Assembly (NCBI GenBank): GCA_016783505.1
Contig: JADHWK010000037.1
Coordinates: 1-22,966, forward strand
DNA length: 22,966 nt
Reading direction: 5' to 3'
Source of the DNA: Candidatus Zhuqueibacterota bacterium
Lineage (GTDB): Bacteria; BS750m-G25
Notes under the pieces: model-generated
Seen by the model: only the letters and a program-made list of their open reading frames with translations
What the model was told of the DNA's origin: nothing
Databases searched by the model: none
Shown: piece after piece, positions 2,287-10,606 of the stretch
Position numbering within the stretch: the first letter of the stretch is position 1
Layout: each line of letters starts with the position of its first letter
Program-made: the position numbers and the translations under genes

Positions 2287-2296
2287 TATCTGTAAG

Positions 2297-2527
2297 GTCA
2301 GTCAGGCGCCCTGGCCTGTTGCAGAACTATCGCAATTGATAATTTAGGGGTTATGTTTAGAACCGCTCTAAAGAGCGGTTCTGGTTAAATAGTTGTTAAA
2401 GAAAGTCTTAACCAGAACCTTATCCCGATGTTTCGGGGTAGGTTTTGGCCCTTGCTGAGCAGGCAAGATCTTCATACGGAAAATCAAGGATCTCTGGGTT
2501 GTGACCCGCCTGACTGACACCCGACTG
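2297..2527 (+). repeat. Palindrome-rich dispersed element, copy 1
   Basis: The noncoding block between the TPR gene and rimP is bounded by a perfect 12-bp inverted repeat: GTCAGTCAGGCG at 2297-2308 and CGCCTGACTGAC at 2507-2518. The sequence at 2314-2334 (starting GCCTGTTGCAGAACTATC) recurs inverted at 10570-10590 with 20 of 21 bases identical. The right-end CACCCGACTG at 2518-2527 recurs inverted at 10392-10401. Inside are overlapping hairpins at 2359-2382 (11-bp stem, AA loop), 2377-2419 (12-bp stem) and 2416-2444, plus a smaller one at 2451-2467. No ORF of note is present. It behaves like a non-autonomous, MITE-like repeat or a structured leader RNA. Confidence 0.6.
2359..2444 (+). promoter_or_regulatory. 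Three mutually overlapping hairpins upstream of rimP
   Basis: Hairpin A pairs AGAACCGCTCT (2359-2369) with 2372-2382. Hairpin B pairs GGTTCTGGTTAA (2377-2388) with TTAACCAGAACC (2408-2419). Hairpin C pairs AACC plus TATCCCGA (2416-2428) with TCGGGGTA plus GGTT (2433-2444), with one bulge. The 3' arm of A shares bases with the 5' arm of B, and B with C, so B excludes A and C. This is the geometry of a conformational switch, but no T-tract follows, so termination is not indicated here. Confidence 0.4.
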
Positions 2528-8829: not shown

Positions 8830-8875
8830 CCCACGAATCAATCGGGCGCCTGACCTATTTATTCGTGGGCCTTTA
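8830..8875 (+). terminator. Hairpin after nrnA, terminator-like, loop carries a repeat motif
   Basis: CCCACGAAT (8830-8838) pairs with ATTCGTGGG (8861-8869) across a 22-nt loop, followed by CCTTTATT. The T-tract is weak. The loop holds GGGCGCCTGACC (8844-8855), the same 12 bases as 10556-10567 in repeat copy 2 (the inverse of 11 of them is at 2301-2311). Confidence 0.45.
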
Positions 8876-8907
8876 TTAGCGACAATTCTATTTTTCACGA
8901 GGTGAAT

Positions 8908-9150
8908 ATGAAGAGAAAATTGACACTTCGTCTCGAAGAAAGCCTAATTCAACGTGCAACATCTTATTCGGAAAAGAATGGCAAGTCGGTCTCTCAAATT
9001 ATTGCCAACTATTTTGCACTAATTGGTGAAGAGACATCAGAAGCGGTATCTGAACTTACTCCAGTAGTTCGCTCACTAAAGGGAGCGCTTAGAGGCGGTC
9101 AAGTTGATGAAGACGAGTACAGACGACATCTTGAAGAGAAATACCTGTGA
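8908..9150 (+). CDS. Antitoxin, ribbon-helix-helix type (DUF6364-like)
   Basis: The 80-aa protein starts at ATG 8908, chosen over GTG 8902 because GAGGTG (8899-8904) is then a proper SD. The N-terminal MKRKLTLRLEESLIQRATSYSEKNGKSVSQIIANYFALI is a ribbon-helix-helix: a beta strand (KLTLRL), then two helices with GKSVSQI at the turn. This fold binds operator DNA as a dimer. The C-terminal part (VVRSLKGALRGGQVDEDEYRRHLEEKYL) is the toxin-binding tail usual for antitoxins paired with PIN ribonucleases. Its TGA overlaps the GTG start of the toxin. The pair sits between nrnA and truB, which are normally adjacent, so it is an insertion. The antitoxin should repress the pair's own promoter, but I see no clear operator. 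Confidence 0.85.
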   Translation: MKRKLTLRLEESLIQRATSYSEKNGKSVSQIIANYFALIGEETSEAVSELTPVVRSLKGALRGGQVDEDEYRRHLEEKYL

Positions 9151-9602
9151 AAGTGCTTTTTGACACTAATGTTTTACTCGATGTGATGTTGGATCGTGAG
9201 CCTTTTGCCAATACAGAGGCACAGTTATTCTCGAGGGCGGAAGCTGGAGAAATAACCGGTTTCCTTTATGCAACGACAGTAACGACAATCCACTACCTCG
9301 CCACTAAAATTGTAGGAGCAGACCAAGCACAACTTGAGGTTGGAAAGCTATTTAAGCTTTTCGAGATTGCTCCACTCAATCGTGTTATTTTGGAGGATGC
9401 CACAAAGTTTAATTTCTCGGACTTAGAGGACGCAGTTTTGTATGAGGCAGCCCGTCACGTTGGTGCTCATGCAATTGTCACTCGGGGGGGATCTCGATGG
9501 CTTCAAGCGAGCGGTTCTACCTGTCTATTCCCCTTAAGGATTGGCCAAAATGCTCAATGCGCTCAAGGAAACTTTCAGATAAATATGTCATATAAACCTT
9601 AA
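9147..9602 (+). CDS. PIN-domain toxin (VapC-like ribonuclease), 3' end frameshifted
   Basis: The GTG start at 9147 overlaps the antitoxin stop. The first ~113 residues are a normal PIN domain: MKVLFDTNVLLDVMLDREPF (Asp6), AEAGEITGFLYATTVTTIHYLA, and FSDLEDAVLYEAARHVGAHAIVTR with the mid acidic pair. Past the G7 run at 9484-9490 the frame as read gives an unrelated tail (GSRWLQASGSTCL...) to 9602. The adjacent frame from 9490 instead reads DLDGFKRAVLPVYSP, the expected PIN ending with the last acidic residue. There a TAA (9535-9537) interrupts it, and GLAKMLNALKETFR continues in frame to a stop at 9580-9582. A net +1 (or -2) shift plus a nonsense codon implies an inactive or altered toxin, unless the G-run is an assembly error. 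Confidence 0.8.
   Translation: MKVLFDTNVLLDVMLDREPFANTEAQLFSRAEAGEITGFLYATTVTTIHYLATKIVGADQAQLEVGKLFKLFEIAPLNRVILEDATKFNFSDLEDAVLYEAARHVGAHAIVTRGGSRWLQASGSTCLFPLRIGQNAQCAQGNFQINMSYKP
9538..9582 (+). pseudogene. Residual 3' end of the PIN toxin gene
   Basis: In the frame that also yields DLDGFKRAVLPVYSP, the 14 codons after TAA 9535-9537 read GLAKMLNALKETFR and stop at 9580-9582. This looks like the original C-terminal helix of the toxin and shows that the TAA replaced a sense codon. Confidence 0.5.
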
Positions 9603-10342: not shown

Positions 10343-10391
10343 AACTCCGCTTTCAATATGAGGGTGTTTTGGAGTGCATCGTCCGTCTTAT

Positions 10392-10606
10392 CAGTCGGGT
10401 GGGCCTGTGGCACAACTCTGAGGTTGCTGATTTCCCCTTTGTGTGATAATAAATTATCACGTTATCTCAAAGAAAGTCCGGTAACTTTGGGATTGATTAC
10501 AGTATGTTTCAACATACTTTCTTAGAGTTAAGATAGGAATTTATTCCTATCAGTAGGGCGCCTGACCGATGCGATAATTCTGCAACAGGCTCGGTCACCT
10601 GACCGA
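10392..10606 (-). repeat. Palindrome-rich dispersed element, copy 2 (inverted)
   Basis: This is the inverted relative of 2297-2527: 10570-10590 matches 2314-2334 in reverse complement (20 of 21), and CAGTCGGGTG (10392-10401) is the inverse of 2518-2527. Copy length is close (215 against about 230 bp). GCCTGTGGCACAACT (10403-10417) and the inverse of 10576-10590 form imperfect terminal repeats (13 of 15), reminiscent of insertion-sequence ends, but there is no transposase ORF. The interior holds dyads with 2-nt centres at 10443-10460, 10501-10518, 10532-10551 and 10591-10606. The interior differs from copy 1 although the ends are conserved. Confidence 0.6.

Follow-up and report, generated by a model that had tools for sequence, protein, structure and literature searches.

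A probable MITE-like family with hairpin cargo inside REP-like palindromes of a Zhuqueibacterota genome

Two elements in a 22,966-nucleotide stretch of a Candidatus Zhuqueibacterota genome (positions 1 to 22,966 of contig JADHWK010000037.1; hereafter, the window) belong to a dispersed repeat family that is probably MITE-like, that is, made up of miniature, non-autonomous, non-coding inverted-repeat transposons that target one REP family and carry REPIN/REP hairpins as exchangeable cargo. The novelty lies in how already known types of bacterial repeat are combined, and not in a new RNA. The initial annotation had described two copies with conserved ends and unlike interiors; the observation is real, and the family is larger than reported. 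All inference on the family is drawn from one incomplete genome (G000; 2.51 Mb, 60% complete).

The element family and its target palindrome

The search for further copies that the initial annotation had proposed found about 30: at least 30 complete elements, each ~150–255 bp and non-coding, lie on many contigs (the 30 extracted from genome stretches, both window copies counted, measure 151–254 bp), and at least five more are truncated or decayed. The element runs from GGYCTGTTGCAGAACTATCG (left) to GTTGTGCCACAGRCC (right), the left terminus of the extracted copies being GGYCTGTTGCAGAACTATCGCA and the right again GTTGTGCCACAGRCC, and its ends form imperfect terminal inverted repeats of ~17 bp (left repeat, CCTGTTGCAGAACTA; right repeat, CCTGTGGCACAACTA; in short form, GGYCTGTTGCAGAACTA/TAGTTGTGCCACAGRCC) that mismatch each other at two positions, near-constant across nearly all copies. 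The left end shared by the window copies (GCCTGTTGCAGAAYTATCGCA, at 2314–2334 on the forward and 10570–10590 on the reverse strand) agrees at 20 of 21 bases, with one mismatch, as had been claimed, and exceeds chance, given that its 20-mer has 33 genome matches at up to three mismatches, against 1 for a backward control; the right end recurs in the genome in the same way. Copies are intergenic, apart from three overlapped by mechanical ORFs only, and their orientation to flanking genes is balanced (12 sense, 12 antisense). The family is thus MITE-like in being short, non-coding, multi-copy and dispersed, and equally in having terminal inverted repeats and a target-site duplication. The suggestion that ends resembling those of insertion sequences, with constant termini and variable palindromic cargo, mark an undescribed repeat family is supported by about 30 copies, inverted repeats, duplications and at least four cores.

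Complete copies are without exception embedded in a single 20-bp REP-like palindrome, TCAGTCGGGCGCCTGACCGA or a variant of it, in either orientation and at one fixed position. The palindrome occurs in 102 places at up to two mismatches (control, 1) and is mostly empty; imperfect, extragenic, within the 20–40 bp range and in high copy, it has the properties of a REP. Its commonest form contains one G.T and one A.C mismatch, and it lacks a fixed GTAG/CGTC tag, being only preceded by C-N-N-A and followed by T. In the stretches read, 49 simple solo palindromes represent empty sites, and the flanking C-N-N-A and T were seen at 31, 35 and 38 of 51 sites. Insertion is always at the CGGGCG side, and CGGGCG is then repeated on both flanks; among 29 scorable copies the duplicated hexamer is identical at 6/6 positions in 18, at 5/6 in 8 and at fewer in 3 old copies. 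As the variant targets CAGGCG, CAGGTG and CGCCTG are likewise copied on both sides, this is a true target duplication, strictly of 4–6 bp, because the element ends and the target have G/C bases in common and leave 4 and 6 bp indistinguishable in sequence.

Solo palindromes enter without duplication (for example, at CGCA^TAGG in the second window copy and in L024), and they nest inside one another at the single spot TCAGTCGGGCG^CCTGACCGA. Such behaviour could suggest that all levels, including the terminal-repeat element itself, were spread by Y1/HUH transposases (RAYT, IS200/IS605) through single-stranded hairpin-in-hairpin insertion, with the terminal repeats as the base of another hairpin. 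In keeping with this, the assembly encodes five Y1-type genes, at least four of them flanked by hairpin repeats (for example, C89 and C5), solo palindromes enter at C-N-N-A^T, nested palindromes always lie at one spot near the tip, and hairpin tips switch between forms. However, target bases at the element are directly duplicated over at least 4 bp, a product that Y1 transposition of the IS200/IS605 kind is not known to leave; we therefore consider this reading unlikely.

IS110-type recombination duplicates a short core only. Because the duplicated bases here number at least four, depend on the target and lie off the palindrome centre, bridge-RNA and tyrosine-recombinase mechanisms were set aside. 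For a non-autonomous bridge-RNA (IS110/IS1111) element, the interior of which would act as a guide RNA to REP-like palindromes (compare IS621 and ISPpu9), it also matters that the class interiors have no sequence in common despite an identical target, and we give this reading hardly any credence, even though the interior is non-coding and structured, REP targeting is 100%, and IS110-type elements target REPs (PMC1525189, PMC11208160).

Nesting of palindromes in other hairpins was also assessed, but we do not treat it as significant, as the 7 sites exceed the shuffle mean of 2.1 while single shuffles also reach 7. Separately, two class B copies (L070, or C63, and L226, or C70) are truncated exactly at a nested palindrome with loss of the left end; the nested palindrome of the C63 copy itself houses a class D element, which makes three levels of nesting.

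Architecture of the window copies

Copy 1 (2313–2506, forward strand; core class A) extends from GGCCTGTTGCAGAACTATCGCA to GTTGTG(-CCACAG)ACC, its decayed right end being the true end GTTGTGCCACAGRCC minus CCACAG. It occupies the inner of two nested palindromes. The left half of the outer REP-like palindrome (TCTGTAAGG, two changes from TCGGTCAGG, read from the sequence) lies at 2289–2297 (+) and is followed at 2298–2312 (+) by the left part of the inner target palindrome with the left target-site duplication (TCAGTCAGGCGCCCT); beyond the element lie the right duplication with the right half of the inner palindrome (CGCCTGACTGA; 2507–2517, +) and the right half of the outer one (CACCCGACTGA; 2518–2528, +). 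The outer palindrome received the second at the same spot as in L022, L035 and L161. Within the core, a REPIN-like doublet, AACCGCTCTAAAGAGCGGTT-CTGG ... CCAG-AACCTTATC..GGTT, spans 2361–2444 (+).

Copy 2 (10402–10591, reverse strand; core class B, AGCCTGTTGCAGAATTATCGCA ... GTTGTGCCACAGGCC) is bordered by the right half of its target palindrome with the right target-site duplication (CACCCGACTGA; 10391–10401, −) and by a decayed left part (TCGGTCAGGTGACCG; 10592–10606, −). Alignment with uninterrupted class B copies places a solo palindrome inside it, at 10550–10569 (−), where it entered at CGCA^TAGG and has no target duplication.

These boundaries bear on several earlier statements. The interiors of the two copies do indeed fail to align, because their core classes differ (A versus B), and GTTGTG lies inside the right end of both. 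The 10/10 match of CACCCGACTG (2518–2527 and 10392–10401) is likewise correct as a match, but it was wrongly taken as part of the element: what had been overlooked is that this outermost match comes from the target palindrome, a separate sequence of very high abundance, its instance at copy 1 being part of the outer, second palindrome. The near-equal lengths are a coincidence, because copy 2 holds the extra solo palindrome.

A further solo (empty) target palindrome, TCAATCGGGCGCCTGACCTA, lies at 8838–8857, where it interrupts a CCCACGAAT-TT-ATTCGTGGG hairpin close to the tip; hairpins of this family also flank a TnpA gene in L181. Beside the solo palindrome, at 8902–9602 and within a rimP-nusA-infB-rbfA-truB cluster, a gene for a small ribbon-helix-helix-like protein overlaps a PIN-like gene, a VapBC-type toxin–antitoxin pair by appearance.

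Core classes, hairpin cargo and the RNA reading

Between the shared ends lie at least four unrelated, hairpin-rich core classes, represented among the extracted complete copies by 14 (A), 11 (B), 3 (C) and 2 (D) members. Right-end segments are common to several classes, one subtype being found in part of class A and in class C and the other in the remaining class A and in class B, so the family is modular; in L043, a class B core is joined to an A-type right end. Were this a single transposon family that has merely decayed, the four cores would be degenerate forms of one ancestral interior, which might be thought to follow from the ends common to all and from the copies that are truncated or have small deletions or nested insertions. 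Yet members of class A, like those of class B, agree well among themselves, with nearly invariant hairpin cores, whereas the two classes cannot be aligned with one another, and the class A core also exists independently of the element, as a doublet of its own. We regard simple decay as highly improbable and already largely refuted.

In the class A core, ~84 nt form an inverted doublet with the stems AACCG..CGGTT-CTGG (AACCGCTCTAAAGAGCGGTT-CTGG) and CCAG-AACC..GGTT on either side of a 27-nt spacer, and this core has the form of a REPIN, that is, two inverted hairpins with a short spacer. The same stems are found at three standalone loci (C12, C20 and C66), which align with the class A cores and have no terminal repeats, and single halves occur at C1, C2, C49 and C54; that cargo hairpins occur alone elsewhere in the genome had also been overlooked. 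All three standalone doublets have short tips (TTTA or TTCA), and the embedded ones mostly have CCCGATGCTTCGGG-like tips with two exceptions (L012 and L020); as these come from two different subgroups, tips changed more than once or were exchanged. For the class B, C and D cores no intact standalone doublets were found, only their small palindromes in dispersed form (for class B, TAGGAATNNATTCCTA and CCCGAANNTTCGGG, occurring singly); a decayed class C core occurs without ends.

Several copies contain further repeats. A dispersed repeat, TCCGC..CTAGGGTAGGAGGCTACGCTC (sometimes with GGTCCCAAGATCGCTTTGCGA), is inserted between CCAG and AACC of the class A cores of L001, L018, L019, L023, L055 and L178 and is also present at L181:388–426, and the class B copies L017 and L024 contain a related insertion, TCCCAAGATCTTTACGA. 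Another class B copy (L004) lacks exactly the palindrome GTGATAATTTATTATCACG that is present in other class B copies, a clean presence/absence of a single hairpin, and L068 (C52), also of class B, has a larger insertion with GAGATTCTTCACTGCGTTCAG..CATTCTGAAGAATCT, another hairpin-type repeat. At L182:216–272, a CGGAT..ATCCG stem encloses three consecutive hairpins (AGGAATAAATTCCT, ATCCCGAAACTTCGGGAT and GGTAATTGATTGCC), with a palindrome half-site nearby.

The initial annotation had offered a structured RNA class as an alternative. In such an RNA, the conserved ends would pair into a closing stem around variable functional hairpins. As RNA, all four classes fold much better than shuffled sequences (z −4.4 to −7.2), and paired columns outside the termini show higher conservation than unpaired ones (permutation p<0.001 in class A; p=0.006 in class B). 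However, palindromes fold on either strand, the gene orientation of the copies is balanced, and compensatory changes are almost absent, with doubly changed pairs at only 1/56 (class B) and 1/44 (class A) and a covariation term of about zero and positive sign in both classes. Duplicated target bases and insertion at a fixed point of a palindrome are typical of mobile DNA, and Rfam gives no match to the element, reporting two tRNAs only in the window. A functional RNA class is not supported, and a structured non-coding RNA family is very unlikely. Conservation of the arms without compensation would fit recent spread or hairpin-templated arm repair. That paired columns vary less than unpaired ones nevertheless counts against the MITE-like model, as it could reflect some folding constraint.

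Mobilization, distribution and related systems

In the MITE-like model, the terminal repeats would be acted on in trans by a transposase that moves the element from palindrome to palindrome; this enzyme is probably of the DDE type, because a target duplication is present, and may be absent from, or unassembled in, the 60%-complete genome. REP/REPIN hairpins, spread by Y1 (RAYT/IS200-like) transposases, would have entered the element and become interchangeable cargo, and recombination between copies may have shuffled cores and right ends. The hairpins would then be passengers or folding aids rather than RNA with a cellular task.

No autonomous element with the ends of the family was found in the assembly. 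The sole DDE_Tnp_1 gene, of IS701 type, was examined as a possible autonomous partner, but its flanks have no matching ends; the IS701 consensus end (---YACT) does not fit the GGYCTGT of the element, although the 4-bp target duplications of IS701 (PMC2266710) are compatible with the 4–6 bp of the family. This gene is therefore no more than a weak candidate mobiliser. Apart from IS6100-type GGCTCTGTTGCA contexts, a literature search for the end sequence brought up no insertion sequence of relevance.

On present data, the element family is lineage-specific. Judged by NusA, the genome is closest to six MAGs at 55–59% identity (one labelled Calditrichaeota bacterium AABM5.125.24), and it was in related MAGs that the ends were to be sought; searches of these six and of 39 genomes from the phylum to which they belong turned up neither the palindrome nor the element family, the one exception being a 32-bp partial class B match that we take as chance. 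The end sequence is also absent from the genomes of random relatives, the paired ends as a pattern have 0 matches in 84,980 species genomes, and in viral contigs the palindrome has one match without terminal repeats, likewise taken as chance.

The closest known systems each share part of this architecture. REP-specific insertion sequences (ISPsy8, ISPa11, ISPpu9/10, ISRm19/22, IS1397 and IS621) are described by Tobes and Pareja (2006, PMC1525189), with 100% REP specificity already on record; as here, each copy breaks one point of an abundant extragenic palindrome, ISPsy8 at the symmetry axis and with a short direct repeat. Unlike these, the present element is non-coding, 150–255 bp long and furnished with several unrelated cores, and it targets a palindrome of 20 bp in a bacterium from a candidate phylum. 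REPINs and RAYT–REP systems (Bertels and Rainey 2011, PMC3116915; Nunvar 2010, PMC2817692) resemble the class A core in being inverted doublets of tagged hairpins; the spacer of ~27 nt, the occurrence alone and the architecture beside a Y1 gene are also as in REPINs (PMC3116915), and the solo palindromes are extragenic and numerous as in REP systems. The tag, however, is CCAG/CTGG rather than GTAG/GTGG, the transposase near class-A-like doublets (C80) scores as IS200/IS605 rather than as the RAYT of REPINs, and a terminal-repeat element here serves as carrier of the doublet. TIRtrons and TIR families (Di Nocera 2013, PMC3733652) join stem-loops to degenerate REPs and are dispersed in REP-rich genomes, but TIRtron terminal repeats flank tyrosine transposase genes, whereas the present ends enclose no such gene and come with target duplications. 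Bacterial MITEs (Correia, RUP, MITEAba12) are likewise short, non-coding, intergenic and multi-copy, with inverted repeats and target duplication, but the interior here consists of exchangeable hairpin modules instead of one conserved sequence, and specificity is for a single site in a palindrome.

We tentatively propose, as a possibility below even odds, that this composite unit couples two mobility systems, a terminal-repeat transposon with Y1-spread REPINs as swappable cargo, confined to a third REP family, and that the genome exemplifies a general process of hairpins entering hairpin tips. If so, REPINs would not be solely free-living but could be cargo of an unrelated transposon, two replicating parasites would have one vehicle in common, and REP-targeted transposition, together with several Y1/REP systems per genome, would reach into a little-known candidate phylum. 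The family supplies natural empty sites, a dated nesting order and variable tips for studying the spread of palindromes.

Of the five Y1-type genes, one is a clear RAYT (84 bits against a cut-off of 80), another is RAYT-like but weaker, and three are of IS200/IS605 type. None of the five is flanked by the target palindrome, although a half-site lies 1.2 kb from one. In C80, a TnpA gene of IS200/IS605 type (71.5 bits, above the cut-off for that type; RAYT score 26.7 of 80, below cut-off) is flanked by the class-A-like doublet architecture with different stems. In C89, direct repeats of ~190 bp (191 bp; L180:1060–1245 and 1690–1879, 90.6% identical) lie on either side of an IS200/IS605-type TnpA gene and each hold several hairpins (CACCACGATGAATCGTGGTG, CACCCGAATTYATTCGGGTG and AACCGTTTTAACGGTT). 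A RAYT above the curated cut-off in C5 (L183:1411–1995) has 95-bp repeats on either side, and the pair AGACACCGTCACAGACGGTGTCT / AAACAGGGTTTGTAACCCTGTTT (REP doublets) occurs on both.
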